From NCBI RefSeq assembly GCF_000337915.1, contig NZ_AOJE01000005.1, positions 27,636-72,067 on the forward strand: a DNA stretch of 44,432 bases, read 5' to 3'. Shown here one piece after another: positions 12,746 to 37,031 of this stretch. How positions within the stretch are numbered: the stretch's first letter is position 1; each line of letters starts with the position of its first letter. The translations under genes were made by a program, and so were the position numbers. Below the pieces are notes generated by a model. That model searched no databases. It saw nothing but the letters and a program-made list of their open reading frames with translations, and had not been told where the DNA came from. Source of the DNA: Halorubrum saccharovorum DSM 1137. Lineage in GTDB: Archaea; Halobacteriota; Halobacteria; Halobacteriales; Haloferacaceae.

Positions 12746-12773
12746 CCGGCGGAGAAGAGGGCAGTGACCGATC

Positions 12774-15465: not shown

Positions 15466-15487
15466 GTGCGTCGGATGTAGGTGAACC

Positions 15488-15907: not shown

Positions 15908-16057
15908 GGCGCCAGGGGCCGGCGATGGCAGCCGCGAGGGCGACGCGCCGCGCTCGGTGCGGCTTTTGAACACCTTATATTCGTATTACCACCTGATCGA
16001 CGACTGTAGTGAATATACGAAGTATTGAAGTAGGATGTCCAAGAATAACGGAGTAAG

Positions 16058-16312: not shown

Positions 16313-16381
16313 GTAGCGGGAAACGAAGCGAAGAGCGGCTCGGAGCCGCTTATGACCGCTCGGAGACCGTCGTTCGCGTCC

Positions 16382-18169
16382 TTATAAATCGCGGGTCAGC
16401 CGCGGGTTCGTCACGGCGCCGTCGGACGCGCCGGCGAAGTCGCGGGCGTACTTCGCGAGGATGCCGCCCTCGTACTGCGGTTCCGGCGCCTCCCACTCCT
16501 CGCGGCGCTCGGCCAGCTCTTCATCGCTGAGATCGACGCTGAGGTCGCGCTCCGGGATGTCGACGGTGACGTGGTCGCCGTCCTCGATAAGTCCGATCGG
16601 GCCGCCGTCGGCCGCCTCAGGCGCGACGTGGCCGATCATCGGGCCGCGGGTCGCGCCGGAGAAGCGGCCGTCGGTGAGCAGCGCCACGTCGTCCTCGTGG
16701 CCCGCGCCGACGACGGCGGCGGTGACGCCGAGCATCTCGCGCATTCCCGGGCCGCCGGTCGGTCCCTCGTTGCGGATCACGATCACGTCGCCGGAGTCGA
16801 CCCGGCCCGACTGGACGTACTCCATCGCGTCCTCCTCGTTCTCGAAGATCCGCGCCGGCCCCTCGTGGTAGAACTCGTCGTCGCCGGTCACCTTCAGCAC
16901 CGAGCCGTCGGGCGCGAGGTTCCCCTTGAGTATCTTGATGGCGCCCTCCTCCTCCTTGGGGTCGTCGACGGTGTAGAGGAAGTCCGCCTCGACCTCGTCG
17001 TCGTCGGGAAGCTCGCCGCGCGCCTCCAGCTCCGCCAGCTCCTCGACGAGGGTGCGGCCGGTGACGGTCATCGCGTCGCCGTGGAGTAAGTCGGCCTCAA
17101 GCAGGCGCCGGAGCACGACCGGGACGCCGCCGATCTCGTGGAGGTCGTTCATGACGCTGTTCCCGCCGGGCTGGAGGTCCGCGATCTTCGGGGTGCGCCG
17201 CGAGATCTCGTCGAAGTCCTCGATCGACAGGTCCACGTCGGCCTCGGCGGCCAAAGCGAGCAGGTGGAGCACGCCGTTCGTGGAGCCGCCGATGGCGGTC
17301 TGTAAGGCGATCGCGTTCTCGAACGACTCCCGCGAGAGGATGTCCGAGGGGCGGCGGTCCTCCTCGATACACTCCAGGGCGAGCTCGCCGGCGCGCTCGG
17401 CGACCTCGTAGCGCTCCGGGTCCTCGGCGGGCGCGGAGGCCGAGCCGAGCGGCGCCATCCCGAGCGCCTCGGAGATGGAGGCCATCGTGTTCGCGGTGAA
17501 CATCCCGCCGCAGGAGCCCGCGCCGGGGCAGGCGTGGCGCTCTAAGTCGTCGAGCTCCTCGCCGCTCATGTCGCCCTCGGCGTAGGCGCCGACGCCCTCG
17601 AACACCTGCACGATGGTCACGTCGCGCCCGTCGTGTTGGCCGGGCATGATCGAGCCGCCGTAGAGGAACACCGAGGGGAGGTCGGTGCGGATCGACGCCA
17701 TCAGCATGCCGGGGAGGTTCTTGTCACAGCCGGCGACCGTCACCAGCGCGTCCATCCGCTCGCCGAAGGAGACGAGTTCGACGGAGTCGGCGATCACCTC
17801 GCGGGAGATGAGGCTCGCCTTCATCCCCTCCGTCCCCATCGAGATGGCGTCGGAGATCGTGATCGTCCCGAACTCGATCGGCATCCCGCCCGCCGCGTCG
17901 ATCCCGTCGATCGCGGCGTCCGCCACGTCGTCGAGGTGGACGTTACACGGCGTGATGTCCGCCGCCGGGTTCGGCACGCCGATGATGGGCGACGAGAGGT
18001 CCTCGTCGTCGAACCCCATCGCCCGGAACATCGCGCGGTGCGGGGCCTTGTCCGCCCCCTCCGTCACGTCTCTGCTCCGCAGGTCCTCGTCCTTCTCGCC
18101 CGCGAACCGGTCCGCGTCGTCGCGGCCTCGGGAGGTCTCTTCTGCCGACCGCGGCTGCTGTTCGCTCAT
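16382..18169 (-). CDS. ilvD: Dihydroxy-acid dehydratase
   Basis: A 595-residue IlvD, the Fe-S dehydratase that forms the 2-keto acids of valine and isoleucine synthesis. Cluster ligands are visible as [16 protein letters not shown] and [16 protein letters not shown]. Other signatures are [12 protein letters not shown] and [15 protein letters not shown], and the C-terminal [12 protein letters not shown] with the catalytic Ser. It has a longer acidic N-terminus (about 40 residues) than bacterial forms. A TCTTAAAC-type box at about 18192-18199 lies 27 nt from the ATG, pointing to a leaderless message. No other ilv gene is in the window. Confidence 0.96.
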
Positions 18170-18193
18170 ACCTGCCCCTGTCGCTCGGGGGTC

Positions 18194-18199
18194 TTAAAC
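18194..18199 (-). promoter_or_regulatory. TATA-like box of ilvD
   Basis: TTTAAG on the minus strand, about 27 nt before the ilvD start codon. Confidence 0.5.
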
Positions 18200-18252
18200 G
18201 GCCGCAACGGGGCGAGGGTTGCTCCGTGTGGCGAACCGGTTCGGGGTGAAGG

Positions 18253-18309
18253 CTACCACTCGCCGTCGAAGGAGATGTCACCGCGTTCTAACTCCTCGAA
18301 CGCAGTCAC
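18253..18309 (-). pseudogene. Truncated N-terminus of a PemK/MazF-like toxin gene
   Basis: An 18-codon frame (MTAFEELERGDISFDGEW, GTG start) that ends at TAG. It begins with a 4-nt GTGA overlap with the stop of the winged-helix gene, the typical coupling of an antitoxin-toxin pair. FEELERGDI resembles the N-terminus of PemK/MazF-type proteins, where ERGDIVW opens the first beta-strand. The remainder (about 90 more residues in an intact toxin) is missing: only 83 nt separate this stop from the ilvD start, and none of it reads as toxin. I infer a decayed toxin; the family assignment rests on a short motif. Confidence 0.5.
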
Positions 18310-18614
18310 TGGACCTGTTCCATCTCGTCGGTCCGTAGCTCTTCGAGGCGTTCCTCTCCGTACTGTTCGTCTGCACCCTCGTGGTGTCGGTGGAACCGGT
18401 ACGCGGCTCGGAGCCGGTCCGTATCGTCCGTGATCGCCCAGTACGGGCTCTTGTGACGCACGAGATCTCGTTCCTTCGGTCGGGAGAGGATCGCGCTGAC
18501 GGCGTCCGTCTCCAGCCCGAGTCGCTCGGCGATCGTCGCCGCCTTCCACGCGCGGTCGTCGTTCCGATCGAGGAACAACAGGGCCTGTTCTGTGTCATTT
18601 TGTGTTTCAAGCAT
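18306..18614 (-). CDS. Winged-helix (MarR-like) protein, probable antitoxin of a decayed module
   Basis: A 102-residue protein with an N-terminal winged-helix region. RAWKAATIAERLGLETDAVSAILSRP fits the recognition-helix pattern, and SPYWAITDDTDRLRAAYRFH the wing. It is followed by an acidic C-terminal helix ending EEMQVQ-like (TDEMEQVQ). Such proteins occur in haloarchaea as transcription regulators paired with PemK-like toxins. Here the paired frame is only 18 codons long. It begins 8 nt after the VOC gene on the same strand, so it may be transcribed with it. The start ATG 18614 gives the natural N-terminus MLETQNDTEQ. Confidence 0.75.
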   Translation of the reverse strand: MLETQNDTEQALLFLDRNDDRAWKAATIAERLGLETDAVSAILSRPKERDLVRHKSPYWAITDDTDRLRAAYRFHRHHEGADEQYGEERLEELRTDEMEQVQ

Positions 18615-18622
18615 AGATGCGC

Positions 18623-19015
18623 TCAAACCCGCGCTTTGAGCTCGATCCGGTACCCGAACGGGTCGCGGACGTACACCGCGGGCGACTCGCCGACCGCACC
18701 GAGCGGCTCGTCGAGCGACTTCTCGATCTCGACGCCCGCCGCGTCCAGTTCGGCCTCGATCTGGTCGGCCGACCCCTCGACGACGACGGCGACGTGGTCG
18801 TAGTTCGTCGCGGTCGGCGGCTCGAACTCGTCGGTCGGCCACAGGTGGACGACCGCCGTCGTCGACAGCCGCACGTCGAAGAAGGGCTTCTCCCCGGCCG
18901 CGTACAGCGCGTCCTCGATCCCGAACCCGAGCCGCTCGCCGTAGAACTCCCGGGCGTCGCCGACGCCGTCGGCGGGGATCCGGAGGTTGACGTGGTCGAT
19001 GTGGCGCGCTTGCAT
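18623..19015 (-). CDS. VOC superfamily (glyoxalase/dioxygenase-fold) protein
   Basis: A 130-residue protein with two beta-alpha-beta-beta-beta halves of the vicinal oxygen chelate fold. It starts MQARHIDHVNLRIP (metal-ligand His in IDHVNL), continues with FYGERLGFGIED, then VVHLWPTDEF, and NYDHVAVVVEG with a second ligand His. The C-terminal YVRDPFGYRIELKARV contains the usual Glu ligand. The reaction is not predictable (glyoxalase, ring-cleavage dioxygenase, or resistance). A box ACTTTTGCG about 27 nt upstream on the minus strand supports ATG 19015. Confidence 0.87.
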   Translation of the reverse strand: MQARHIDHVNLRIPADGVGDAREFYGERLGFGIEDALYAAGEKPFFDVRLSTTAVVHLWPTDEFEPPTATNYDHVAVVVEGSADQIEAELDAAGVEIEKSLDEPLGAVGESPAVYVRDPFGYRIELKARV

Positions 19016-19112
19016 GGAACGCGGTTCGGAGCCGAAGCGCAAAAGTCAATGGGGATCTTCGGGTCTGAGATCGGTCGTGTGAGATATATGCGTAGCAGTG
19101 GATACACTCCAC

Positions 19113-19553
19113 ATGACCAATTTTGATCGGGCCACACGCGTCGCCGCCGGTATCGGGCTCGTCGCGCTCGGAGGCGTCGCGTTCCTCGCGCTCGTGATCG
19201 GCCTCCCGGCCTCGACCGCGTCCGGCGGCATGGGCACGATGGGCGGCGGCGGGATGATGGGCGGACCGGGGTTCCCGGTCGTCCTGTACCCGCTCGTGCT
19301 CCTCGCGTTCACGGCCCTCCTCGCGTTCGGCTACGCCGGAGTCCGTGCAGTCGCGAGCGCAAGCGACGACGCCCCAACCGACGATTCGGAAGAGTCCGAT
19401 CCGATCGCCCGACTCCAGCGGCGGTACACCGAGGGGGAACTCACAGAGGAGGAGTTCGAGCGGGCGCTGGATCGCGAATTCGCCGACAAGGCGCTCGACG
19501 GGGACGAGGAACGCAACGGGACGGAGCGCTCGGCGCCCCTGCGAGAGCGGTAA
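19113..19553 (+). CDS. SHOCT-domain membrane protein
   Basis: A 146-residue protein. It has a short N-terminus, membrane helix 1 (about residues 10-31), a Gly/Met-rich loop (GGMGTMGGGGMMGG), helix 2 (about 55-78), an acidic linker, and a C-terminal SHOCT domain (DPIARLQRRYTEGELTEEEFERAL). The SHOCT segment is a short helical oligomerisation or interaction motif; the protein's role is unknown. ATG 19113 is preceded by GATATATG about 27 nt upstream (19083-19090), consistent with a leaderless transcript. The Met-rich loop might bind copper, but this is only a guess. Confidence 0.82.
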   Translation: MTNFDRATRVAAGIGLVALGGVAFLALVIGLPASTASGGMGTMGGGGMMGGPGFPVVLYPLVLLAFTALLAFGYAGVRAVASASDDAPTDDSEESDPIARLQRRYTEGELTEEEFERALDREFADKALDGDEERNGTERSAPLRER

Positions 19554-19578
19554 CGAACCGCGATCGGGGTGCGACCAG

Positions 19579-20256
19579 TCAGGCGAACGCGTCGAGGATC
19601 CCCGCGCCGTCCGTGCTCCGGCCGAGGTCCGGGAGCGTTGCGCGCTCGGGGTGGGGCATCAGGACGGCGACCGTCTCGCGCTCGCCGAGGACGCCGGCGA
19701 CGTTGTCGGTGGAGCCGTTGGGGTTGGCCGCGTCGGTGACGTTTCCGTCGGCGTCGCAGTAGCGGAAGAGCACGCGGTCGTCGGCGACGAGGTCGGCGTG
19801 GGCCGCCTCGCTTATCTCGAAGCGCCCCTCGCCGTGCGCGATGGGGACCTCGATCACGTCGCCCTCGTCGTAGGCGGCGGTCCACGGCGTGTCCGCGCGC
19901 TCGACGCGCAGGTGGACCGGCTCGCACTGGAAGCGCGCGGAGGCGTTAGTGGTGAACGCGCCGGGGGTGAGCCCGGACTCGGAGCCGATCTGGGCGCCGT
20001 TGCAGACGCCGATCACGGGGACGCCCTCCTCGGCCGCGGCCCGGACCTCCGCCATGATCGGAGCGCGGGCGGCCATCGCACCGGCGCGGAGGTAGTCGCC
20101 GTAGGAGAACCCGCCGGGGAGGACGATCCCCTCGATGTCGGCCGGGAGCCCGTCCTCGTGCCAGACGCGCTCGGCGTCGACGCCGAGGTGGTCGAGCGCG
20201 CGGACCGCGTCGCGGTCGCAGTTCGAGCCGCCGAACTGGACGACGGCGACCGTCAC
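19579..20256 (-). CDS. purQ: Phosphoribosylformylglycinamidine synthase, glutaminase subunit PurQ
   Basis: A 225-residue class I glutamine amidotransferase that supplies ammonia to PurL for FGAM formation in purine synthesis. It starts MTVAVVQFGGSNCDRDA. The oxyanion and nucleophile motifs are VLPGGFSYGDYLRAGA and GVCNGAQIG with Cys85. The His/Glu of the triad lie in LMPHPERAT near the C-terminus. The GTG start at 20256 overlaps by 4 nt (GTGA) the stop codon of a 31-codon ORF that itself overlaps the end of purS. A GTG three codons upstream (20265) is an alternative start. purL is not in the window. Confidence 0.94.
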   Translation of the reverse strand: MTVAVVQFGGSNCDRDAVRALDHLGVDAERVWHEDGLPADIEGIVLPGGFSYGDYLRAGAMAARAPIMAEVRAAAEEGVPVIGVCNGAQIGSESGLTPGAFTTNASARFQCEPVHLRVERADTPWTAAYDEGDVIEVPIAHGEGRFEISEAAHADLVADDRVLFRYCDADGNVTDAANPNGSTDNVAGVLGERETVAVLMPHPERATLPDLGRSTDGAGILDAFA

Positions 20257-25709: not shown

Positions 25710-26093
25710 CTACAGCGTGATCACGTGGTCGACGCCGACCTCGCCGAGCGCCGCGTAGAGGTCCGGGAAGCAGCCGACCGTCGCGCCCTCGACCGTGTCC
25801 GTCGGCTCGTAGTGGTCGCGACCGTGCTCGTCGGTGTGATCGAACTCCGCGAGCCCGCGGCGGGTCGCGCACTGGTCGCACAGCATGAGGAGGATCTCCT
25901 GCTCGGCGGCCACGTCCGCGAGCCGCTGTCCCAGCGGGTCGTCCTCGCGGAGCGCGTAGGTGTTGTCGTGGAAGAAGAACATTCCGACCACGTCGACGCC
26001 GTGGGCCTCGGCCTCCAACTGCGGGAGGATCATGTCTCCAAGCACGTAGTCGATGGTCTGTCCGGCCGTCGCGAAGACGTACGCTACCTTCAT
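25710..26093 (-). CDS. DsrE/F-like small sulfur-relay protein
   Basis: A 127-residue protein with the DsrE/F fold pattern: MKVAYVFATAGQTIDYVLGDMILPQL, a central hydrophobic strand VVGMFFFHDNTYAL, and LLMLCDQCATRRGL with Cys72 and Cys75. A third Cys is near residue 107 (GATVGCFPD). Family members accept or pass persulfide sulfur on such cysteines, usually with TusA and rhodanese partners. Last gene of a minus-strand run with the propeller, rhodanese-like and second propeller genes, so a cytoplasmic sulfur relay is likely. Its exact partner is not shown. Confidence 0.8.
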   Translation of the reverse strand: MKVAYVFATAGQTIDYVLGDMILPQLEAEAHGVDVVGMFFFHDNTYALREDDPLGQRLADVAAEQEILLMLCDQCATRRGLAEFDHTDEHGRDHYEPTDTVEGATVGCFPDLYAALGEVGVDHVITL

Positions 26094-26161
26094 AGATCGA
26101 CCACGGCGAGCGGGGGAATGGCTCGCGCGACTCCGGCGGCTTTCCCCGCCATCGGTGACAG

Positions 26162-27187
26162 TCAGACCACGACCGATCCGAACGGGTACGCCGGCGTGTC
26201 AGCCGTCCAGACGGTCCCCGACTCGACGTCGACGAGGGACACCCGGTCGTCGTCGTAGTGCGAGACGGCGAGCCGCCCGCCGCCGACGGGAGTCGCGACC
26301 AGCCCGGGCGCCGGCGTCTCGACGACCGCCCCGTCGAGCGATCGGAGCCGGGCGGCACCGGCGTCGAGCACCCACCAATCGCCGGCGATTTCGAAGAGCT
26401 CGACGGGCCGGGAGAACCCCTCGTGGACCACGATCGGCTCCAGGTTCCGGCCGAGCTCGTGGACGACGCCGTCGCCGCGGCCGGGAACGAATACGCGGTC
26501 CTCGGTCGCGACGAGGTCGTAGGGATCGGCGCCGACCGCGGCTTCCGTGTGGACCGGCTCGGCTGAGGCGGCGTCTCCCCCGACATCGCCGCCGGGATCG
26601 AAGGCGATCACGCGGGCGCCGCGCTGGTCGACCGCGTACCCGCGGTCCCCGTCCGGCGAGAGCGCGACGCCCTGGACGCGGACGCCCGGCCCGGCGTCGA
26701 TCGCGCCGATCCGCTCGCGGCGCTCGGTGTCGACGACGTCGACGACGCCCTCGCGGCGGCTCCCGGAGTAGAGCCGGTCGCCGTCGGGAGCGACCGCGAT
26801 CTCGTGCGGCTCCGCGCCGACGGCGACGCGGTCGACGAGCGTCAGGCCCTCGGGGTCGATGACGGCGAGCGCGTCGCCGGCGGAACAGGAGACGTACAGC
26901 TCCCCGTTCGCGGTCGCGAAATGGGACGGTCCCAACACGCCGGTCTCGATCCGAGTCACCTCGCCGTCCGGGTCGACCGCGGTGACGGCCCGCTCGCCCA
27001 TGGTCGCGACGACGGTCCGCCCGCGACAGGTCGTCGCGTGGACCGGGTGGCTCCCGACCGGGACCTCGCCGAGCCGCGCTCCCGTATCGAGCGCGAACAG
27101 CGCCAAGAGGTCGTCCCCCTCGCAGGGGACCGCGAGGACGCGGTCGGCGGACGTGCCGGCGCCGCTCCCGTGGCCGTCCGCGGTCAT
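26162..27187 (-). CDS. Cytoplasmic YncE-like beta-propeller protein
   Basis: A 341-residue protein of repeated beta-propeller blades with YncE/PQQ-like motifs (DTGARLGEVPVGSHPVHAT; IDPEGLTLVDRVAVGAEPHEIAVAPDG; VDTERRERIGAIDAG). It has no signal peptide or lipobox. It contains only a few Cys residues (PCEGDD, TTCRGR, VSCSAGD). The role is not known, but it lies 4 nt after the rhodanese-like gene's stop on the same strand and 68 nt before dsrE, so it belongs to the sulfur-linked operon. It may bind a small ligand or scaffold its neighbours. Confidence 0.8.
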   Translation of the reverse strand: MTADGHGSGAGTSADRVLAVPCEGDDLLALFALDTGARLGEVPVGSHPVHATTCRGRTVVATMGERAVTAVDPDGEVTRIETGVLGPSHFATANGELYVSCSAGDALAVIDPEGLTLVDRVAVGAEPHEIAVAPDGDRLYSGSRREGVVDVVDTERRERIGAIDAGPGVRVQGVALSPDGDRGYAVDQRGARVIAFDPGGDVGGDAASAEPVHTEAAVGADPYDLVATEDRVFVPGRGDGVVHELGRNLEPIVVHEGFSRPVELFEIAGDWWVLDAGAARLRSLDGAVVETPAPGLVATPVGGGRLAVSHYDDDRVSLVDVESGTVWTADTPAYPFGSVVV

Positions 27188-27191
27188 GAGC

Positions 27192-28292
27192 TCATCCCGT
27201 ACAGGAGAAGTCGCCGCCGTCGTCGTCGCCGCCGACGCTCCCCTCCGTCTCGATCACGACGTTCGTCGCCGTCTCGACGGGGTACCGCCCGCGGTCGCTA
27301 TCGACGTTCGCCCACTCGCCGAAGCCGCCGTCGTAGAGCCGCACGTCCTCGAACCCGATCGCCTTCAGCGTCAGCCACGTCGAGGTCGGGTCCACGTTGT
27401 CGTCGCCGTAGACGACGACGGTCCCGCCTCGGTCGAGTTCGGCCTCGACCTCGTACAGCCGGACGAGCCGTCCCGGCTCCGTCATCTGCCGCCCCGCGAC
27501 GTTCCCGACCCAGTGGACGTCGACCGCGCCGGGGAGGTGCCCGTGCCGGTCGTGGTCGTCGTTCAGTGCGTCGGAGCCCGCGGCGGCGAGGTACGCCTCG
27601 GGCACGCGCACGTCCACCAGCCCGGGGCCGTCCCCGTTGAACGTCCCGACCCGGTCGGCGAGCCACTCGCGGGTGACCCACGTCGACGACGCGGGGTCCG
27701 GCTCGTAGTCGGTCGACGAGACACCGTCCCGCGACCCCGTCCCGAGGCGGCCGTTCCAGGCCGAGAGCCCGCCGTTGAGGACCCGAATCTCCCCCTCGTG
27801 GCCGACCGCGGCGAGCGCGAACGCGACGCGGGTGACCCGGGAGCCGACGCTCGCGCCGTAGACGAGCACGTCGTCCTCCGGGCTCACGCCGATCTCGCCG
27901 AACGCGGTCGCGATCGCGTCGGTGTCGGGCGCGTCGCCCGCCTCGGTCGACTCGCGGGCCGTGATCGCGTCGAAGGGGACGCGTCGGGCGCGGTAGACGC
28001 GCTCCTCGCGGAACCGATCCGCGTCGCGTGCGTCGAGAACGACCGTGTCCTCGCGGTTGTCGGCGAGCCAGCTCGGCCCGACGAAGTGGCCGACGTTCCC
28101 CGACACCTCGCTCCGCGCCGCCACGTCGGCGGGGGTCGTCACGCCGAGACAGCCCGCCGTGCTCGCCGCGCCCGCGACGGTCGCACCGGCCGCCGCGCGC
28201 AGGAGGCCGCGGCGAGTCGCGTTCTCCGAGGCGCCAGAGGCGTCGGAGTCGTCTCCGGCCTCGCCGTCGTCTGTCGAACGTTCTCGTGTCAT
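27192..28292 (-). CDS. Tat-exported lipoprotein with tandem rhodanese domains lacking both catalytic Cys
   Basis: A 366-residue protein. The Tat signal TRRGLLRAAAGATVAGA ends at a lipobox TAGC (Cys48), so it is exported and probably lipid-anchored. Two rhodanese domains follow (about 70-185 and 205-340). At the catalytic loop, where active rhodaneses have Cys, domain 1 reads VYGASVGSR (Gly146) and domain 2 VYGDDNVDPTST (Gly296). The only other Cys is Cys364 in the last four residues, on a flexible Gly/Asp tail (GGDDDGGDFSCTG). This suggests a structural or carrier role with sulfur on the tail. ATGA overlap with the upstream propeller gene; cytoplasmic partners follow. Confidence 0.85.
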   Translation of the reverse strand: MTRERSTDDGEAGDDSDASGASENATRRGLLRAAAGATVAGAASTAGCLGVTTPADVAARSEVSGNVGHFVGPSWLADNREDTVVLDARDADRFREERVYRARRVPFDAITARESTEAGDAPDTDAIATAFGEIGVSPEDDVLVYGASVGSRVTRVAFALAAVGHEGEIRVLNGGLSAWNGRLGTGSRDGVSSTDYEPDPASSTWVTREWLADRVGTFNGDGPGLVDVRVPEAYLAAAGSDALNDDHDRHGHLPGAVDVHWVGNVAGRQMTEPGRLVRLYEVEAELDRGGTVVVYGDDNVDPTSTWLTLKAIGFEDVRLYDGGFGEWANVDSDRGRYPVETATNVVIETEGSVGGDDDGGDFSCTG

Positions 28293-29644
28293 CCGCAGTA
28301 GCAGTGGTCGTCCATACACCACGACGCCTCCATCTCGCCGAACGTGACCCCGAGCGAGGCGAGCGACGCCTGTACCCTCGCGACGGCGTCGCCCTCCGGG
28401 CGGACGGTCCCGCCGGCGGCCCCCGTGGGCGCCTCGCCCACCCCGATCGTCTCGACGACCTCGCGGCTCGCGTGGTCGATCACGGCGACCTGGTTGGCGT
28501 CCTGTACGGGGACGTACAACTTCTCGCGGGTCGGCCCCCACGAGGCGGAGATGGCGCTTCCCCCCACGTCCAGCGTCGTCTCGTACTCGAAGCTCTCCAG
28601 ATCGATCACGCCGACGCCCTCGCCGGGGATGAGGAGGTACGCGGCCTCGTTGTCCGGGGACACCTCGCTCGTGATCGGCGCGCCCGGGAGCCCGTCGTCG
28701 CGGGTGATCTTCCCAATCTCCTCGGGGCTCTCCGGGTCGGAAATGTCCCAGAGGCTCTCGGAGCCCTCGCGGGGAACCTCGGGCTCGCCGCCGAGCGTCC
28801 CCTCCCCGTTCTCGACGAGGAGGTACTCCCCGTCGAACGCGGCGGTACACATGAACGGGAGGACGTTCCCCTCGGTGACCGGCTCGCCCGCGTCGACGCG
28901 GGCGACCGTCTCGAACGGGTCGACGCTCAGCACGCGGATCGCCTCGTCGGCCACGTCGACGACGAACGCGTAGTCGCCGTCGGGCCCGAGCGTCATGTCG
29001 CAGGGGCCGACGTAGCCCGTCTCGATCTCCGCGGTCACCTCGCCGAACGCCTCGCTGTCGCGGTCGGCGTCGACGCGGAAGATCGCGTGGTTCTCGTCGC
29101 CCTCGGGCGCCATCCCGGTGGTGCCGCCCGACGCGATCAGCAGGTGATCACCGTCGGGCGTGACGTTCGGGTAGTTCGGGCCGTAGCCGGTCTCGACGAA
29201 GGCGACCTCCTCTAACGTGCGCTGGTCGATGCCGCGGACGCCGCCGGAGACGTTGAGCCAGAGCACGTCGTGGTCGGCGTCGGTCCCGGTGGAGTACTGG
29301 TTGGCCGGGAACGAGGCGGTCGTCCCGAGGAACGCGGAGGTGAGCAGCTCGTCGGACTCGGCGTCGATGACACTGACGGTCCGGTCCCCGTTGTTGAACA
29401 CGAACATCGTCGGCGCGGGGTCGTCGCCGCCCCCGCCTCCCCCGCCGGAACAGCCCGCGAGCGCGGCCGTCGCCCCGACGGCGCCGGACGTTCGGAGCAG
29501 CCGACGCCGGTCGATCCCCTCCGCGAAGGGGTTCCGGCGGTCGTCGTTCGCCAGGTCGCTCCCCTTCGCGGGGCGCGGGGGCGCGTCCCCCTCCGAGGGA
29601 CCCGAAGCCGGGTCGGTCGTCCCGCAGCCGCAGTCGTCGCTCAT
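28289..29644 (-). CDS. Tat-exported YncE-like beta-propeller lipoprotein with Cys-rich C-terminus
   Basis: A 451-residue protein. After a polar N-region containing CGCG (Cys5, Cys7), it has the Tat motif DRRRLLRTSG and lipobox ALAGC (Cys65). A Gly-rich linker leads into a YncE-like seven-blade propeller (FVFNNGDRTVSVIDAESDEL; YGPNYPNVTPDGDHLLIASGG; DYAFVVDVADEAIRVLSVD). It ends in CMDDHCYCG (Cys443, Cys448, Cys450). This tail could bind metal or carry sulfur. A TTTAGCC box about 27 nt before the ATG at 29644 makes it the likely first gene of a four-gene operon. It lies divergent from the YeeE/YedE transporter, 154 nt away. Confidence 0.83.
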   Translation of the reverse strand: MSDDCGCGTTDPASGPSEGDAPPRPAKGSDLANDDRRNPFAEGIDRRRLLRTSGAVGATAALAGCSGGGGGGGDDPAPTMFVFNNGDRTVSVIDAESDELLTSAFLGTTASFPANQYSTGTDADHDVLWLNVSGGVRGIDQRTLEEVAFVETGYGPNYPNVTPDGDHLLIASGGTTGMAPEGDENHAIFRVDADRDSEAFGEVTAEIETGYVGPCDMTLGPDGDYAFVVDVADEAIRVLSVDPFETVARVDAGEPVTEGNVLPFMCTAAFDGEYLLVENGEGTLGGEPEVPREGSESLWDISDPESPEEIGKITRDDGLPGAPITSEVSPDNEAAYLLIPGEGVGVIDLESFEYETTLDVGGSAISASWGPTREKLYVPVQDANQVAVIDHASREVVETIGVGEAPTGAAGGTVRPEGDAVARVQASLASLGVTFGEMEASWCMDDHCYCG

Positions 29645-29663
29645 ACCCCAGCGACGCGTCTCA

Positions 29664-29671
29664 CGGCTAAA
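29664..29671 (-). promoter_or_regulatory. TATA-like box of the propeller-rhodanese operon
   Basis: CTTTAGCC on the minus strand, about 27 nt before the operon's first ATG at 29644. Confidence 0.45.
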
Positions 29672-29769
29672 GGCTCCCCGGACGCCCCGTTCGTTGCCCC
29701 GTGTGTCACGTATCGGCAACTATTGCTTTTTCCTCCGATCCGAGGGAGCCGTTACCGTCTCCAGCGACG

Positions 29770-29776
29770 CTTTACG
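29770..29776 (+). promoter_or_regulatory. TATA-like box of the YeeE/YedE gene
   Basis: CTTTACG centred 27 nt before the ATG at 29799. It faces the opposite-strand promoter of the propeller operon, so both could be co-regulated from the shared 154-nt spacer. Confidence 0.45.
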
Positions 29777-29798
29777 TGCGGGAGCGTGTGTTCCGGTA

Positions 29799-31007
29799 AT
29801 GTTGCTGTCGCCCGTCGCCTACGTCGGCGTCTCTATCGCGGTCGGGTTGTCGTTCGGGATCCTGCTACAGAAGGCGCGGTTCTGCTTCGTCAGCGCCTTC
29901 CGCGACTTCGTCGCGTTCAAAGACACCCGCGTGCTGAAGGGGCTGCTCGCGGGGATCGCCGTGATGACCGTGTTTTGGAGCGTGCAGGCCACGTTTGGCT
30001 ACTTCCGCGGCTTCTGGACGCCCGCGTGGGGGCTCGGCTCGCTGTTCGGCGGGTTCGTCTTCGGGCTCGGCATGACGCTCGCCGGCGGCTGCGCCTCCGG
30101 CACCCTCTACCGCGCCGGACAGGGGTACCTCCAGTTCTGGCTCGTCCTCCTCTTCATGTTCGTCGGCTACGTCCTCTTCGCGTTCGCGTTCCCCGTCGCC
30201 GAGACGTACTACTTCGCGACGCTGAACCCGTTCGAGGGGCAGACGCTGTACCTCTCCTTACCGTTCTCGCCCGCCGTGACGGGGGTGTTGGCGGTGTCGC
30301 TCGGTACCGTCGCGTACGCGTTCGTGAAGGGGAAGAGCCAGCTCCCCGACGACCCCTCCGGCGGGGCCGGCGTGGGCGCCGACACCCGCGCGCAGGCGGC
30401 GGTCGGCGCCTCCCGAACGCTCTCGGCCGTCTCGGTCGGCCTGCGCGGCATCGCCGACGGCACGGTCGCGTACGTCCGCGCGCTGCGCGACGACGACCGC
30501 CCGCTGAAAGTCCGACTCCGCGACTCGTGGGACGCGCGGACCGCGGGCGTGGCGATGGCGCTCGTCGCGAGCCTCTGGTTCTACGTCCACGGCCACTGGG
30601 CGATCACCGGCAGCGAGGCGCGCTGGGCGGGCTACCTGCTGGCGGGCGCCGGCTTCGACGTGGCCAGCGTCGAGTACTGGGGCTCGATCCTGTTCCGCGA
30701 CGGCAACATCTCGCTGACCATCGACATGGTGATGATCGCGTCGCTGATCGTCGGCTCCTTCGTCGCCGCGTACGCCTCCGGCGACTTCCGGATCCGCAAG
30801 CCGAAGCTGAATCGGGTGCCGAACTACGCCGCGGGGGGCCTCCTGATGGGCGTCGGCTCGCGGCTCGCCGCCGGCTGCAACATCGCGAACCTCTTCTCCG
30901 GCGTCGCGCTGCTGTCGGTCCACTCCTTCATCGCCGGCGCGGGGATCATCCTCGGCGTCTACGTGATGACCCACTACATGTACCGGGAGGTCGGCTGCGC
31001 GATCTGA
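29799..31007 (+). CDS. YeeE/YedE family sulfur-compound transporter
   Basis: A 402-residue membrane protein made of two similar halves, each with several helices. Conserved Cys occur in KARFCFVSAF (Cys29) and in the paired motifs LAGGCASGTLYRAGQG (Cys98) and LAAGCNIANLFSG (second half). Such Cys line the thiosulfate path in YeeE. A long polar loop (about residues 190-245) links the halves. The family imports thiosulfate, or selenium-linked compounds in YedE members. It is divergent from the Tat-exported rhodanese-like and propeller genes, which fits uptake of an extracellular sulfur species. Confidence 0.9.
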   Translation: MLLSPVAYVGVSIAVGLSFGILLQKARFCFVSAFRDFVAFKDTRVLKGLLAGIAVMTVFWSVQATFGYFRGFWTPAWGLGSLFGGFVFGLGMTLAGGCASGTLYRAGQGYLQFWLVLLFMFVGYVLFAFAFPVAETYYFATLNPFEGQTLYLSLPFSPAVTGVLAVSLGTVAYAFVKGKSQLPDDPSGGAGVGADTRAQAAVGASRTLSAVSVGLRGIADGTVAYVRALRDDDRPLKVRLRDSWDARTAGVAMALVASLWFYVHGHWAITGSEARWAGYLLAGAGFDVASVEYWGSILFRDGNISLTIDMVMIASLIVGSFVAAYASGDFRIRKPKLNRVPNYAAGGLLMGVGSRLAAGCNIANLFSGVALLSVHSFIAGAGIILGVYVMTHYMYREVGCAI

Positions 31008-31061: not shown

Positions 31062-31637
31062 TCAGACCTCGACGTCGAAGGCGACGGATACGGACCTGAC
31101 TTCTCCGGTTTCTCCGTCGATCAGGCCGTGGTAGACGAACCGGTACCGCCCCGAAACGAGATCCGGACAGACCCGAACCCGATCCGGATGCCGGCTCGCC
31201 TCGACGATTCCGGCCTCGGTCAGTTCAAGATGCCACGTGTGTCCGCCCTCGACATCCTCGTCGGTGTTGCTCAAGGGACGGCCCTCCTCGGCGGCGCGCA
31301 CTTCGGTCCACCCCTGTTCCGTGTATATCTCGACGTTCCACTTGTCCGCGTTGCCCCTCACGGGCGCCGTCAGTGTGATTTCGGTCGTATCACCGTATTC
31401 GTACGAGAGAGCGTCCACCCGTAGCGAGGCGCTCCCCGCGTCGCCCCACCGCAGATTTGCCGATTCGTACCCAGTGGGATATCGTTCGAGCGCGTCGTCA
31501 TCGCACGCGAACTCCGTCGGAACGTCGTCCGGGTTCGCCTCTGGTCTAACGTTTCCCTTGGAGCCGCCGAGACACCCCGAAATAGCCGTGAGCGCCGATC
31601 CAGAGCCGACGATCGCTAGAACTGTTCTCCGTCTCAT
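31062..31637 (-). CDS. Haloarchaeal lipoprotein, unknown function
   Basis: A 191-residue protein with a signal peptide (MRRRTVLAIVGSGSALTAIS) ending in lipobox ISGC (Cys22). The mature part has a pair of Cys (ACDDDAL, VCPDLVSGRY) and reads as a beta-rich Ig-like fold: ANLRWGDAGSASLRVDAL, YGDTTEITLTAPV, GRYRFVYHGLID. It resembles many haloarchaeal surface lipoproteins of unknown role. It starts 16 nt after the DUF5615 stop on the same strand, so it may be read from the toxin-antitoxin promoter. Confidence 0.78.
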   Translation of the reverse strand: MRRRTVLAIVGSGSALTAISGCLGGSKGNVRPEANPDDVPTEFACDDDALERYPTGYESANLRWGDAGSASLRVDALSYEYGDTTEITLTAPVRGNADKWNVEIYTEQGWTEVRAAEEGRPLSNTDEDVEGGHTWHLELTEAGIVEASRHPDRVRVCPDLVSGRYRFVYHGLIDGETGEVRSVSVAFDVEV

Positions 31638-31653
31638 CGTTGAAGGCAGGAGA

Positions 31654-32022
31654 TCACTCGTGGAGCCATTCGTACCACTCACCGAGATCGACGAGGTGGT
31701 TTTCGACCCCCTCTGACCCGTACTGGGAGAACACCTCGTCGACCGTTCGAGCGAGTCCCTCCGGATCAGCGTCGGGGAGCTTCTGGTCGTGGTAGAGTAA
31801 GATCCCCGCGTGGTCGTGTTCGTCGTGTAGCGACTCGAAATCCTTCGCGTTGTTCGTCAGCAGGACCGTGCCGGACTCGCCGCACCACGAGACCAGTTCG
31901 GCGTCGGTTGTACGTTCACCGAACCTGTCTTTCGCCTGCTCGATGTCGTACCCGCGTTCTCGGAGTGTCCGTTCGAAGACGCGACCGACGTGTTCGTCGA
32001 GGAGGATCTGAGGCCCCGTCAC
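31654..32022 (-). CDS. DUF5615 PIN-like protein (probable toxin)
   Basis: A 122-residue protein of the DUF5615/Mut7-C-like PIN fold. It starts ILLDEHVGRVFERTLRERGYDI with the first acidic residues (Asp9, Glu10), continues DAELVSWCGESGTVLLTNNAKDF, and ends GILLYHDQKLPDADPEGLARTVDE. Family members are predicted ribonuclease toxins paired with DUF433 antitoxins. Its start overlaps the DUF433 stop by 4 nt (ATGA), the standard coupling. Putative active-site Asp residues are retained, so it looks intact. Confidence 0.85.
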   Translation of the reverse strand: MTGPQILLDEHVGRVFERTLRERGYDIEQAKDRFGERTTDAELVSWCGESGTVLLTNNAKDFESLHDEHDHAGILLYHDQKLPDADPEGLARTVDEVFSQYGSEGVENHLVDLGEWYEWLHE

Positions 32023-32294
32023 TGCACGGTCTCTTTCGGCTTCAGCGACGATTCTCGGAGACGCTCGAACGCCGCCTCGTTCTCCTGTTCGAGTTCCCGC
32101 ATCTCTTCGATGTGAGCGTAATAGTGAGAGAGGGACTCGTACACCTCTGCGAGGGACACGTCGAACTGATCCGCGACCTGAGCGGGGGACTGTCCGCCAC
32201 CGATCACCCGCGCGGCGACGTGGCGCACGCCGACCCGCGTTCCGTCGATTCGGGGTTCGCCGCCAAGTACGTCGTCGTCGCGGATGATACTCAT
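32019..32294 (-). CDS. DUF433 family antitoxin
   Basis: A 91-residue protein. SIIRDDDVLGGEPRIDGTRVGV is the DUF433 signature: GxPxIxGTR followed by a winged-helix stretch, SPAQVADQFDVSLAEVYESLSHYYAH. A charged C-terminal helix follows. It is the expected partner of the downstream DUF5615 PIN-like gene, and it probably binds DNA and neutralises the toxin. A TATATTTTT box on the plus strand at 32321-32328 (AAAAATATA on the coding strand) lies 27 nt from the ATG, giving a leaderless, autoregulated-type promoter. Confidence 0.86.
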   Translation of the reverse strand: MSIIRDDDVLGGEPRIDGTRVGVRHVAARVIGGGQSPAQVADQFDVSLAEVYESLSHYYAHIEEMRELEQENEAAFERLRESSLKPKETVQ

Positions 32295-32443: not shown

Positions 32444-32779
32444 TCAGGCGTCCGCCGCCGCGCCGGTCTCCAGGTCGAAGTCCCACTCCTCGTAGCCGCC
32501 GGACATGCTGGCGACGAGCACGCCGTCCTCGACGCCCTCGTAGCTCTGGATTAACATTGCGGCCTGCTTCGACGACTGGCCGACCGGACACGCGCAGACC
32601 ACGTCGGTGTCGTCCCAGTCGATGTCGGGGACGCGGGAGGGGAGATCGCCCAGCGGGACGTTGATCGCGCCGGGGATGTGGCCCCGCTCGTACTCCGCCG
32701 GCGGGCGCGTGTCGATGACGCGGACGTCGCCCTTCTGGACTCGCTCGTTGACTTCCTCGGGGGTGAGTTCCTCGACCAT
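32444..32779 (-). CDS. Single-domain rhodanese sulfurtransferase
   Basis: A 111-residue rhodanese. It reads VRVIDTRPPAEYERGHIPGAINVPLGDLP, the standard CH2A region, then the active loop ACPVGQSSKQAA, in which Cys64 is the likely persulfide-carrying residue (Cys62 is two residues before). It ends VLVASMSGGYEEWDF. It probably receives or donates sulfur in concert with the TusA-like protein, whose gene ends only 2 nt upstream of its ATG. The C-terminal eight residues are a short acidic/Ala tail. Confidence 0.92.
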   Translation of the reverse strand: MVEELTPEEVNERVQKGDVRVIDTRPPAEYERGHIPGAINVPLGDLPSRVPDIDWDDTDVVCACPVGQSSKQAAMLIQSYEGVEDGVLVASMSGGYEEWDFDLETGAAADA

Positions 32780-32781
32780 GA

Positions 32782-33081
32782 TTACTCCTTCCGCATGAAG
32801 ATCCGGTAGCGACCGTCGCCCGACTTCCACACCTTGGCGGTCGCGTCGTCGCCGACCGCCTTCGGGACGTTCTCCGTGCTCGGGACGTGGTCGGTCTTCT
32901 GGACCAGCACGTCGCCGGCGTCGAGCCCCGCGATGGCCTTCTTCGCCTCGACCTGCGGGTACGGACAGACCTCGCCGGTCATGTCCTGTACCTCGGTCGC
33001 GTCGTCCAAGAGCGACTCGGCGGTCGCGTCGTCGAGCTCGTCGGGCATCTCGACGACGTCGTCCCACGATGGTTGACTCAT
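32782..33081 (-). CDS. TusA-family sulfurtransferase with acidic N-terminal extension
   Basis: A 99-residue protein. The C-terminal 68 residues are a TusA (SirA-like) domain with the CPYPQVEAKKAI motif (Cys39 as sulfur carrier) and PSTENVPKAV later. The first 33 residues form an acidic extension (DDVVEMPDELDDATAESLL). TusA passes sulfur to thiouridine, Moco or sulfur-oxidation pathways. Here the immediate partner is the rhodanese 2 nt downstream. A TATA-like TTACC around 33108 and the ATG at 33081 fit a leaderless start. It is divergent from cysteine synthase. Confidence 0.9.
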   Translation of the reverse strand: MSQPSWDDVVEMPDELDDATAESLLDDATEVQDMTGEVCPYPQVEAKKAIAGLDAGDVLVQKTDHVPSTENVPKAVGDDATAKVWKSGDGRYRIFMRKE

Positions 33082-33231: not shown

Positions 33232-34251
33232 ATGAGCGAATACGTCGTCGACGAGTCGGCGATCTTCGAGACGCCGCTTCTGGAGCTCGATCTCGACATC
33301 GAGTCCGACGCGGACGTGTACGCGAAAGCCGAGTGGTTCAACCTCTACGACGCCCCGCACGGCGGCGGCTCGGTCAAGTCGCGGATCGCGAAGGGAATGT
33401 TAGACGGCGCCGAGGAGCGCGGCGACCTCGACCCCGGCGTCACCGTGATCGAGCCCACCTCGGGCAACACCGGCAGCGAGGTCGCGCGCCTCGCGAACGC
33501 CCGCGGCTACGACGTGGAGATCGTCATGCCGGACAACGCCGCGGGCGGGAAGGTCGACGCCGTCCGCGACGCCGGCGCGGAGATCCACTTCGTCGACGCC
33601 AACCTCGGCTACGACGCCGTCATCGAGCGCTGCGAGGAGATCATAGACGCGGATCCAGGCGCCTACTACCGGCCGAACCAGTACGAGAATCCCGACAACC
33701 CCGGCACACACGAGCGAACGACCGCCCGAGAGATCTACGAGGCGACCGACGGCGAGGTGACCCACTTCGTCGCGGGCGTCGGCACGGGCGGGACGGTCAC
33801 CGGAACCGGCCGAGGGCTGACCGACCTGACCGACGGCGCGGCCGAGATCGTCGGCTTCGAGCCGGACGAGCAGCTCCACGCCATCGACGGGCTGAAATAC
33901 CTCAAGTCGGGCGACCACTACCACCCCGACACGTACGACGAGTCGGTCCTCGACCGGACGGAGTACGTCACGACTTCCGACGCCTACGACCGCGCTCGGG
34001 CGCTCCGCGAGCGCTACCTGGACAGCGAGATCCCGATCGCGGACCCCGGCCAACACGACGAGGCGACGATCCGCGAGCACCTCCGGGTCGACGACCAGTT
34101 CGTCGTCGGCACCTCCGCGGGCGGCGGCGCGGCGGCGGTCGCGGGGCTCGACGAGGCCGGCGCGATCGCGGACGACGACGTGGTCGTGTTCATGCTGTGC
34201 GACCGCGGCGACAAGTACGCGGACATCCCGCTGTGGGAGGAGTATCTCTGA
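33232..34251 (+). CDS. PLP-dependent cysteine synthase family protein
   Basis: A 339-residue fold type II PLP enzyme. The PLP lysine Lys49 is in GGGSVKSRIA, the substrate loop is PTSGNTGSEVARLA (residues 75-88), and GVGTGGTVTGTGR is the phosphate-binding turn. These match O-acetylserine sulfhydrylase/cystathionine beta-synthase relatives; the sulfur donor could be sulfide or protein persulfide. ATG 33232 follows TCTTATC about 27 nt upstream. The neighbouring TusA, rhodanese and SAMP/UbaA genes suggest it belongs to a sulfur-assimilation neighbourhood. The start site of the longer frame at 33151 is not supported. Confidence 0.91.
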   Translation: MSEYVVDESAIFETPLLELDLDIESDADVYAKAEWFNLYDAPHGGGSVKSRIAKGMLDGAEERGDLDPGVTVIEPTSGNTGSEVARLANARGYDVEIVMPDNAAGGKVDAVRDAGAEIHFVDANLGYDAVIERCEEIIDADPGAYYRPNQYENPDNPGTHERTTAREIYEATDGEVTHFVAGVGTGGTVTGTGRGLTDLTDGAAEIVGFEPDEQLHAIDGLKYLKSGDHYHPDTYDESVLDRTEYVTTSDAYDRARALRERYLDSEIPIADPGQHDEATIREHLRVDDQFVVGTSAGGGAAAVAGLDEAGAIADDDVVVFMLCDRGDKYADIPLWEEYL

Positions 34252-34292: not shown

Positions 34293-34376
34293 GTCGGGGT
34301 CGAATCGCCCGCCGCTGGCCGTCGTGGTCAAATCGCCTGCCGCTGGCCGTCGGGGTCCTATCGCCCGCCGCTGGCC
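34293..34376. repeat. 28-nt tandem repeat, three copies, over the SAMP stop codon
   Basis: Three units (34293-34320, 34321-34348, 34349-34376) sharing GTCG(G/T)GGTC, then ATCGCC and GCCGCTGGCC, with a few mismatches. The last copy carries the final codons and the stop of the SAMP gene (minus strand), and the first lies 42 nt after the cysteine synthase stop. Confidence 0.85.
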
Positions 34377-34621
34377 GCCGGGATGACCCGGACCTGCGCG
34401 TCGTCGGGCACGTCCGCATCGAGGCCGTCGACGGGCGTTCCCTCGACGTAGACGTTGATGAACTCCTTGATCTCGCCGTCCTCGACGACGCTGTCTCTGA
34501 GCTCCGGCCCGTGTTCGTCCGCGTGGTTCTCGAACAGCTCGCGGACCGTCTCGCCGGCGACTTCGACCTCGGAGGTCGAGGATCCCCCGACCAGCACGGC
34601 CGGCAGTTTGATCGTTGCCAT
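34358..34621 (-). CDS. Ubiquitin-like small modifier protein (SAMP/MoaD-like) with Gly-Gly-Arg C-terminus
   Basis: An 87-residue beta-grasp protein of the MoaD/ThiS/SAMP type: MATIKLPAVLVGG, FENHADEHGPELRDSVV, EFINVYVEGTPVDGL, ending VRVIPAASGGR. Haloarchaeal SAMPs are adenylated on a C-terminal diglycine by the E1 UbaA and joined to protein lysines, or carry sulfur. Here Arg87 follows Gly85-Gly86, so the protein would need trimming first. The stop is in a tandem repeat. A CTTTTTG box about 27 nt upstream supports ATG 34621. It is divergent from ubaA, 250 nt away. Confidence 0.83.
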   Translation of the reverse strand: MATIKLPAVLVGGSSTSEVEVAGETVRELFENHADEHGPELRDSVVEDGEIKEFINVYVEGTPVDGLDADVPDDAQVRVIPAASGGR

Positions 34622-34871: not shown

Positions 34872-35735
34872 ATGAGCGATCTCGATCTCGATCCCACCCA
34901 GCTCGACCGGTACTCCAGACACATCATCATGGACGACGTGGGTCCCGAGGGGCAGAAGGCCCTGCTCGACGCCGAGGTGCTCGTGCTCGGGGCGGGCGGG
35001 CTCGGCGCGCCGATCATCCAGTACCTCGCGGCCGCCGGCGTCGGCACGCTCGGGATCGCCGACGACGACGAGGTGGAGCTGTCGAATCTCCAGCGCCAGG
35101 TGATTCACGGAAACGACGACGTGGGACGCAAGAAGGTCGACTCCGCCGCCGACTTCGTCGAACAGCTCAACCCGGACATCGACGTGCGGAAACACGAACT
35201 GCGCGTCCGGCCCGACAACATCGAGGAGCTCATCGACGGCTACGACTTCGTCGTCGACGGGACGGACAACTTCGCGACGCGGTACCTCGTCAACGACGCC
35301 TGCACGCTCGCCGGGATCCCCTTCTCGCACGGCTCGATCTTCAAGTTCGAAGGGCAGGTGACCACGTTCGCGGGCGACGACGACTCGCCGTGTTACCGGT
35401 GTCTGTTCCCCGAGGCGCCGCCGGAAGGGATGGTCCCGAACTGCGCGACCGCGGGCGTGCTCGGCGTCCTCCCCGGCACCGTCGGCTGCCTGCAGGCGAC
35501 CGAGACGGTCAAACACATCATCGGCGAGGGCGAGACGCTCGACGGCTCGATGCTCTTCTTCGACGCGCTCGACATGGAGTTCGACAAGGTCGAGATCCCC
35601 AAGCGCGACGACTGCCCCGTCTGCGGCGACGACCCCGCCATCGAGTCGGTCCACGACGTGGAGTACACCGCCTCCTGCGCGATCGACGTCGGCGGCGACG
35701 ACGAGGCGGAGCCCGAGATCGAAGCGAGCGACTGA
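34872..35735 (+). CDS. ubaA: UbaA: E1-like SAMP-activating enzyme (ThiF/MoeB family)
   Basis: A 287-residue E1-type adenylyltransferase that activates SAMPs for conjugation and for thiouridine and Moco sulfur transfer. The nucleotide loop is LGAGGLGAPIIQ (residues 39-50), followed by DDDEVELSNLQRQVIH. The catalytic Cys191 lies in VPNCATAGVLGVLPG. Zinc ligands are Cys174 and Cys177 (CYRC) and Cys248 and Cys251 (CPVC). The last 30 residues are an acidic tail. Length and layout match haloarchaeal UbaA, which lacks the rhodanese tail of eukaryotic MOCS3. The gene lies beside SAMP and JAMM protease genes. Confidence 0.93.
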   Translation: MSDLDLDPTQLDRYSRHIIMDDVGPEGQKALLDAEVLVLGAGGLGAPIIQYLAAAGVGTLGIADDDEVELSNLQRQVIHGNDDVGRKKVDSAADFVEQLNPDIDVRKHELRVRPDNIEELIDGYDFVVDGTDNFATRYLVNDACTLAGIPFSHGSIFKFEGQVTTFAGDDDSPCYRCLFPEAPPEGMVPNCATAGVLGVLPGTVGCLQATETVKHIIGEGETLDGSMLFFDALDMEFDKVEIPKRDDCPVCGDDPAIESVHDVEYTASCAIDVGGDDEAEPEIEASD

Positions 35736-36602: not shown

Positions 36603-37031
36603 TTAGCGCTCGCTCCGCACGGAAACGGTCTCCTGTTCGAACCCCTCGTCGTCGCCGCGCCAGCGCCACGAGCCGACGAACGGGTAGCCGTCCAGCGCGC
36701 AGATGACGTACGAGTGGCCGGGCCACGTCGCTCGCGCGGCGTCGGTCTCGCTCGGGTGGGTCGGCCCGGTCGGGTGCGAGTGATAGAACCCCACCACGTC
36801 GAGCCCGTCGTCCTCGATCGCCTCGATGAGTTCGAACTGCTCCTCGGGATCGATCAGGTACCGGATCTGGGGCGTCTCGGCCACGTTCTCGGCCTGATAC
36901 GTGTCAGTGACGACGCTCGGCTCCCCGTCGTCGCCGTGGGTGCCGGCGAGCACGCCGCAGATCTCCGCCTCGCCGCCGCCGTACGCGTGGTAGACGATGT
37001 CGTCGTACGCCGCCCGTGAGAGCTCGATCAT
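36603..37031 (-). CDS. JAMM/MPN+ metalloprotease (SAMP desampylase, HvJAMM1-like)
   Basis: A 142-residue zinc protease of the JAMM family. The catalytic Glu23 lies in EICGVLAG and the JAMM motif is HSHPTGPTHPSETD (His84, His86, Ser94, Asp97). In Haloferax such an enzyme cleaves SAMPs from target proteins. There is no transmembrane segment and no extra domain. ATG 37031 follows an ACTTATCC box on the minus strand about 27 nt upstream. It is encoded 870 nt from ubaA with an AT-rich gene between, so the two may be functionally linked. Confidence 0.92.
   Translation of the reverse strand: MIELSRAAYDDIVYHAYGGGEAEICGVLAGTHGDDGEPSVVTDTYQAENVAETPQIRYLIDPEEQFELIEAIEDDGLDVVGFYHSHPTGPTHPSETDAARATWPGHSYVICALDGYPFVGSWRWRGDDEGFEQETVSVRSER

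Follow-up and report, generated by a model that had tools for sequence, protein, structure and literature searches.

How sulfane sulfur is presented from the outside to YeeE-type importers is an open question, even for SoxT1A, the best-studied of them. A locus of the archaeon Halorubrum saccharovorum DSM 1137 raises this question for a different set of genes. It lies in a stretch of 44,432 nucleotides (nt) (GCF_000337915.1, NZ_AOJE01000005.1, 27,636–72,067), called the window here, with a G+C content of 69%. At 25710–31007 of the window, four minus-strand genes are divergent from yeeE, which encodes the importer. A first-pass annotation, made from the sequence, proposed that two exported proteins of this group bind a sulfur species on their Cys tails and pass it to the importer, with DsrE receiving it inside. 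All five open reading frames are present with confirmed borders, as are both quoted tails (...WCMDDHCYCG of prop1 and ...GGDFSCTG of rhod). The island is real, conserved and coherent, and is a new variation on YeeE/TusA import. The evidence leans, not strongly, towards an island for the uptake of thiosulfate or sulfane sulfur, in which an exported carrier arm would feed the YeeE-type importer for biosynthesis. Its parts are listed below (aa, amino acids; Tat, twin-arginine translocation).

29799–31007, plus strand: yeeE, a 402-aa full-length YeeE/TsuA-type importer (PF04143; phmmer against 6LEO)
28289–29644, minus strand: prop1, a 451-aa Tat-type exported YVTN beta-propeller lipoprotein
28292–28318, minus strand: Cys tail of prop1, C443-x4-C448-x-C450-G, from the alignment
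27192–28292, minus strand: rhod, a 366-aa Tat-type exported lipoprotein with two rhodanese domains and no catalytic Cys
27384–27419, minus strand: active-site loop of rhod domain 2, VVVYGDDNVDPT, with Gly296 at the rhodanese Cys position
27195–27209, minus strand: C-terminal tail of rhod, FSCTG (C364), preceded by a Gly/Asp-rich linker
26162–27187, minus strand: prop2, a YncE/YVTN propeller without signal peptide
25710–26093, minus strand: dsrE, SaoD/DsrE family (NF040913), an optional member

The ATG of rhod and the stop codon of prop1 overlap as ATGA. The gap from rhod to prop2 is 4 base pairs (bp), and that from prop2 to dsrE is 68 bp. Both exported proteins, prop1 and rhod, have an RR signal sequence and a lipobox (LAGC, TAGC).

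The rhod protein matches PF00581 in two stretches (100.3 bits in Pfam), and this is the only family found in it. The solved tandem rhodaneses 3AAX and 3HWI are matched at 56.9 bits each. Rhodaneses hold sulfur on a Cys of the active-site loop. In domain 2 of rhod, the aligned position is Gly296 (YGDDNVDPTSTW versus YCRIGERSSHTW of 8K55), which is invariant across the family alignments, and domain 1 likewise has no Cys. The absence of the pocket Cys from both domains is the key point that the first-pass annotation missed. Like SseA/TST (3HWI, 3AAX), rhod has two rhodanese domains, but it has Gly for the catalytic Cys and a new terminal Cys. In 23 of the 24 distinct rhodaneses without a pocket Cys, the only Cys of the mature protein are those of the lipid anchor and the tail; the exception, from Halobellus clavatus, has one additional Cys. 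As a rule, rhod thus has a single free thiol, that of the tail Cys.

This Cys sits 0–2 residues from the C-terminal end. Across 25 different full-length tailed rhodaneses the terminal motif F-[ST]-C never varies, and F362 and C364 are invariant in the alignment. The proteins end in FSCTG in Halorubrum, Halobellus and Natrononativus, in FTCN in a metagenome-assembled genome (MAG) of Salinarchaeum, and in FSC in genome G029. The Gly/Asp-rich linker alone suggests that the tail is flexible. The first-pass annotation regarded loss of the terminal Cys in orthologues as fatal to its proposal; both tails are conserved, and the tail Cys of rhod and prop1 are retained while overall identity drops to 45–57%, which is no matter of chance. 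The rest of each active-site loop is also highly conserved (Y295, G296, N299, P302 and T303 in domain 2; V149, G150, R152, V153 and R155 in domain 1 are invariant), implying that the domains are not simply decaying.

A likely order of the two changes is suggested by the G029 locus (L122:9194–14036). Here, four exported rhodaneses lie in a row beside yeeE, three of them canonical. The last, rhod4, is followed by prop2 and contains both the pocket Cys (VVVYCVSGEFASNTW) and the terminal Cys (...AFSC). Also next to this yeeE are tusA and a gene for a rhodanese with a fused metallo-beta-lactamase domain. Based on the phylogeny, all 25 tailed rhodaneses form one group (support 98/90), and rhod4 is the sister of the 24 Cys-less ones (support 100/99). 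With both Cys in rhod4 and a single group of tailed proteins in the tree, the tail was probably gained once and first, and the pocket Cys lost later. This is the simplest reading, and it rests on one long-branched protein. Exported haloarchaeal rhodanese relatives that are not encoded near yeeE retain the pocket Cys and lack a Cys tail. Matches in Corynebacterium and other bacteria were rejected: they are ordinary rhodaneses, with the pocket Cys present where read.

The first-pass annotation suggested looking for co-occurrence of these gene families in haloarchaea, and this is confirmed for one YeeE subtype and the tailed rhodanese. Profile searches covered 341 haloarchaeal (Halobacteria) genomes, and loci were taken from whole genomes and from genomes of named species. 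YeeE scores exceed 740 bits in 18 genomes (group I); G029 follows at 566, group II at about 420–480, and a few are weaker. Tailed rhodaneses score at least 511 bits in 19 genomes, and the next score is 235. All 18 group-I genomes carry a tailed rhodanese, with no exceptions in the 341. The 19th genome with a tailed rhodanese is G029, where it lies side by side with the more distant YeeE. The association of group-I YeeE with the tailed rhodanese has a Fisher p of about 5e-29, uncorrected for shared ancestry. Genome G306 contains only a tailed-rhodanese fragment, cut off where a contig ends. The gene order differs in Halobellus and Salinarchaeum, where the parts nevertheless stay together; dsrE has moved in both, and so has tusA-rhdS in Halobellus. 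The linkage is rearranged but retained in Natrononativus. The exported operon is seen in none of 11 group-II loci examined (L123–L133). Nine of these have tusA beside yeeE, eight of the nine also with the small rhodanese, which is the TsuA-TsuB layout. This indicates a TsuAB-like core to which the exported operon was added.

The YeeE protein matches Sulf_transp (PF04143) over its full length at 187.7 bits in Pfam. By phmmer, its C29, C98 and C360 are aligned with C22, C91 and C293 of Spirochaeta thermophila TsuA (6LEO). It scores below the NCBIfam cut-offs for TsuA (144.5 versus 400 bits for NF052577, 99.3 versus 645 for NF041049). A TusA-family partner with a CPxP motif (VCPYP, 32782–33081) is encoded nearby and is syntenic in most loci. 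The best reading of these similarities is a TsuA/YeeE-type sulfur importer with predicted thiosulfate transport. An extra C-terminal Cys (C400, REVGCAI) is also conserved. Haloarchaeal YeeE proteins of both groups (the window and L121–L133) end in R-[DE]-V-G-C plus two residues, which makes this a fourth conserved Cys. In a cyanobacterial MAG (L077:6638–8865), an exported tandem rhodanese with normal Cys directly precedes a YeeE-type gene, so the pairing of exported rhodanese and YeeE exists in bacteria too.

YVTN repeats are found in both prop1 and prop2 by family search. The C-x(3-4)-C-x-C-G tail is present in every prop1 recovered: C443, C448, C450 and G451 are invariant in 17 sequences, and the tail is also seen in L121. 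It is C-x4-C-x-C-G in Halorubrum and Natrononativus and C-x3-C-x-C-G in Halobellus and Salinarchaeum, sometimes with a short extension. In the structure model of prop1, the predicted local distance difference test (pLDDT) score of the propeller core is mostly 70–95, and that of residues 413–451 is below 50. The nearest folds in a structure search are YVTN/YncE-type propellers. No function was obtained from this search, whose matches are generic YVTN S-layer proteins, NirF, YncE and a low-identity thiocyanate dehydrogenase. C22 and C101 of prop2 are invariant.

DsrE, the inside acceptor in the first-pass proposal, is the weakest part of it. The protein exceeds the cut-off of the SaoD/DsrE family (NF040913, 190.3 versus 152 bits) and of no other model, scoring below the SaoD cut-off (125.9 versus 169 bits). 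It weakly matches DsrE of 2HY5, with the Cys of LMLC and MVVC aligned. An intact dsrE is found in 13 of the 341 genomes, 12 of them with a tailed rhodanese; the 13th is G306, whose rhodanese is cut by the contig end. Genes of the SaoD/DsrE family are also found on the Thermus megaplasmid pTT27 (L142:9001–9402), next to argonaute, and on the Thermomicrobium roseum megaplasmid (L143:10001–10405), next to a metal ABC transporter, both without sulfur neighbours. As a defining member dsrE was rejected, being broken or absent in many loci (about one third) and lacking sulfur neighbours in Thermus. It often accompanies the island without belonging to its core. TusA, with which YeeE-type importers are partnered, is the likelier acceptor in the cytoplasm, and DsrE can be kept as an optional one.

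What the sulfur might be used for is suggested by the genes beyond yeeE (PLP, pyridoxal phosphate).

32444–32767, minus strand: rhdS, a small cytoplasmic rhodanese, syntenic (PF00581, 75.1 bits)
32782–33081, minus strand: tusA, TusA/YeeD-like with a CPYP motif (PF01206, 46.1 bits)
33235–34251, plus strand: a cysteine-synthase-like PLP enzyme (PF00291, 165 bits)
34358–34621, minus strand: a SAMP1/MoaD/ThiS-like carrier ending in AASGGR (ThiS, 25.7 bits versus a cut-off of 22.5)
34872–35735, plus strand: ubaA, a SAMP-activating E1 (NF047750, 479.5 bits versus a cut-off of 450)
36603–37031, minus strand: a JAMM protease, desampylase (NF041370, 153.8 bits versus a cut-off of 130)

The first-pass annotation placed tusA and the rhodanese 1.5 kilobases (kb) further on; they are at 32444–33081, about 1.4 kb past yeeE. 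It would also have taken an operon usually accompanied by non-sulfur genes as a refutation; instead, tusA, the small rhodanese, the cysteine synthase and ubaA, and also the SAMP/ThiS and JAMM genes, usually adjoin it. The best NCBIfam match of tusA is TsuB/YeeD, at 35.7 bits and below the cut-off, and the cysteine-synthase-like enzyme is likewise below the cysKM cut-off (231.8 bits). The gene for this enzyme adjoins yeeE also in L121 and L052. Residues after the Gly-Gly of the SAMP1/ThiS-like protein are conserved across loci (SGGR, SGGRR, SGGCSP), so cleavage by the JAMM protease would be needed. CysO-CysM-Mec and HcyS-HcyD are bacterial thiocarboxylate routes to cysteine and homocysteine with this gene make-up. 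As in these routes, genes for a ThiS-like carrier with residues after GG, an E1, a JAMM protease and a PLP sulfur enzyme are side by side; the island differs in having the archaeal SAMP/UbaA/desampylase versions, with predicted activities. An archaeal protein-thiocarboxylate route to cysteine is thus possible. The resemblance favors biosynthesis over oxidation without being proof.

These observations can be put together as follows. Anchored to the membrane, both rhod and prop1 would face outwards. Having lost its pocket Cys, rhod would carry one thiol on a flexible C-terminal arm, and this thiol would most likely accept sulfane sulfur, whether it comes from thiosulfate, from polysulfide or from prop1. 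The loaded tail would present the sulfur at the mouth of YeeE, and the sulfur would enter along the three Cys of the importer. Inside, TusA and the small rhodanese would take it, DsrE being an optional extra acceptor, and it might then feed the cysteine synthase and the UbaA/SAMP/JAMM thiocarboxylate relay. The anatomy and evolution of rhod are best read as pointing to a carrier role of its tail. Several points weigh against this scheme. The structure model of rhod (pLDDT 47.9) is too poor to show the reach of the tail. Halorubrum persicum (L051/L119) has no prop1, which may be dispensable, and 7 of the 19 genomes with a tailed rhodanese have no intact dsrE, several loci holding fragments; not all parts are therefore needed, as prop1 is absent from one species and dsrE from several. 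A weak PAPS-reductase (3'-phosphoadenosine 5'-phosphosulfate reductase) match in the H. saccharovorum genome implies that sulfate assimilation may also exist, which leaves the need for an import route unclear. Conserved terminal Cys could instead bind metal or form a disulfide.

A more specific version of the carrier scheme is plausible, and is held more tentatively than the scheme itself. It can be speculated that the rhodanese became an extracellular SoxY-like shuttle: it first acquired a Cys arm that could accept sulfur from the persulfide of its active site, the pocket Cys was then lost, and the arm now loads YeeE from the outside, with the three-Cys-tailed propeller as sulfur donor or redox partner. 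If so, rhod would plainly illustrate how a catalytic residue can move out of the pocket of an enzyme onto a carrier arm. SoxY, the exported carrier of the Sox system, has the C-terminus GGCGG, with a single functional Cys near a flexible Gly-rich end. The first-pass annotation compared the tails with this arm in principle. The comparison stands for the single conserved C-terminal Cys of an exported protein; it does not extend to fold or sequence, which are unrelated, since rhod is a tandem rhodanese without a SoxY domain and ends in FSCTG rather than GGCGG. A SoxY search of the H. saccharovorum genome gave no match, and as the controls were silent too, absence is not concluded. In a culturable Halorubrum, the island offers a tightly linked set of candidate outside partners of the importer, a single mutable Cys, a two-Cys relative and a candidate operator.

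The rival that survives best, though unlikely, is plain YeeE-TusA uptake of thiosulfate, with rhod and prop1 as exported binding or docking proteins. The Cys-less pocket would bind thiosulfate, and the tail Cys would anchor rhod by a disulfide to YeeE or prop1. The conservation of both rhodanese loops after the loss of the Cys fits such binding, prop1 offers partner Cys, and YeeE and YeeD suffice for thiosulfate uptake in bacteria (PMC11073785). However, rhod4 of G029, with both catalytic and tail Cys, fits hand-over of sulfur better than anchoring, and a Gly/Asp-rich linker before the tail is typical of a mobile arm.

The 154-bp region between yeeE and prop1 contains the back-to-back promoters noted before, with TAAAG/CTTTA boxes 24–29 nt from each ATG.

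29668–29672, minus strand: TATA-like box of prop1 (TAAAG on the plus strand), 24–28 nt upstream of the ATG
29770–29774, plus strand: TATA-like box of yeeE, CTTTA, 25–29 nt upstream of the ATG
29694–29719, no strand: candidate operator TTGCC-N16-GGCAA, between the two divergent genes

In 12 aligned promoter rows, AAAG of the prop1 box is invariant (12/12) and TTTA of the yeeE box is kept in 11; both boxes are at leaderless spacing. A sigma-70 promoter scan of this region found nothing, and that model does not apply to archaea. The palindrome is exact or has one mismatch in every Halorubrum locus tested. Natrononativus and two loci of the Halobellus group, in which the spacing differs, also have exact copies, so that three genera share it; the Salinarchaeum MAG, G029 and the group-II loci gave no match. 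Shuffled sequences contain it in 0–3 of 10000–20000 shuffles, and for the Halobellus-group loci, not used in defining the motif, in 2–3 of 10000. As it occurs twice in the whole H. saccharovorum genome, single matches mean nothing; it is the conservation across genera that counts. The importer and the exported operon may share one divergent operator.

Such a palindrome suggests a dedicated regulator, and it is conceivable, if improbable, that the island serves sensing or detoxification of external reactive sulfur, as do SoxT1B or persulfide-stress systems, rather than growth supply. The YeeE-like SoxT1B works in signalling (PMC11582611). Yet among the conserved neighbors no regulator gene was recognized, two copies of the palindrome in the genome reveal no wider regulon, and the neighbors are biosynthetic (cysteine synthase, SAMP/UbaA/JAMM). 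Handling of metals or metalloids is more doubtful still. Here soft metals would be bound by prop1 through its C-x3-4-C-x-C tail and by rhod through its terminal Cys, and DsrE would act as in the selenocysteine-assisted organometal (SAO) system, to whose SaoD it is related. Membership of DsrE in the SaoD/DsrE family and the metal transporter beside its T. roseum relative agree with this; its score below the SaoD cut-off, its dispensability, the conserved sulfur neighbors and an importer of the thiosulfate/sulfur family do not. Selenium transport of the YedE type is very improbable and was rejected: the second half of YeeE matches the YedE/FdhT model at 167.6 bits, but YeeE is below every YedE cut-off (51.7 versus 200 for TIGR04112, 167.6 versus 350 for NF033796), and no SelD exceeds the cut-off in the H. 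saccharovorum genome (best 81.5 versus 125).

The first-pass statement that no described system has this composition applies to the exported propeller and the Cys-less, Cys-tailed rhodanese, for which no describing paper was found in the open-licence literature. It does not apply to the whole, since TsuAB, the YTD cluster and the proposal for SoxT1A overlap with the island. Thiosulfate uptake by TsuA-TsuB (YeeE-YeeD) is established in Escherichia coli and S. thermophila (PMC11073785). The island shares with it a full-length YeeE with the same three Cys, a nearby CPxP TusA partner and the predicted use of sulfur for cysteine, whereas TsuAB has no exported propeller, exported rhodanese or Cys tails, and the YeeE here is below the TsuA cut-offs. 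For SoxT1A of Hyphomicrobium denitrificans, a route from a persulfidated exported carrier through the YeeE-like importer to rhodanese, DsrE and TusA was proposed by its authors without proof (PMC11582611). In both SoxT1A/SoxT1B and the scheme favored here, a YeeE-like importer would be loaded by the Cys of an exported carrier (SoxYZ, via DsbA/SoxS, in the former); SoxYZ is tied to sulfur oxidation (sHdr), while the carrier of the island would be a modified rhodanese with biosynthetic neighbors. The YTD cluster of sulfur disproportionators consists of YedE, TusA, DsrE and two DsrF/H-like proteins (PMC8780430, PMC13047784). The island also has YeeE/YedE, TusA and, in part of the loci, a DsrE-like protein; judged by families, it has propellers and a rhodanese where YTD has the two DsrF/DsrH-like proteins.

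In Halorubrum salinarum the island is carried by a megaplasmid and in Natrononativus by a plasmid of 768 kb (L144, L145), and the MAG of Halorubrum sp. LUM.57 contains two copies (L042, L049). The two copies and the location on large plasmids in two species point to mobility. In the window, the stretch between yeeE and rhdS (31062–32294) contains a Tat-type lipoprotein gene and a DUF5615/DUF433 pair, with the layout of a PIN-like toxin-antitoxin system. In many relatives, no more than a few hundred bases separate yeeE from rhdS.

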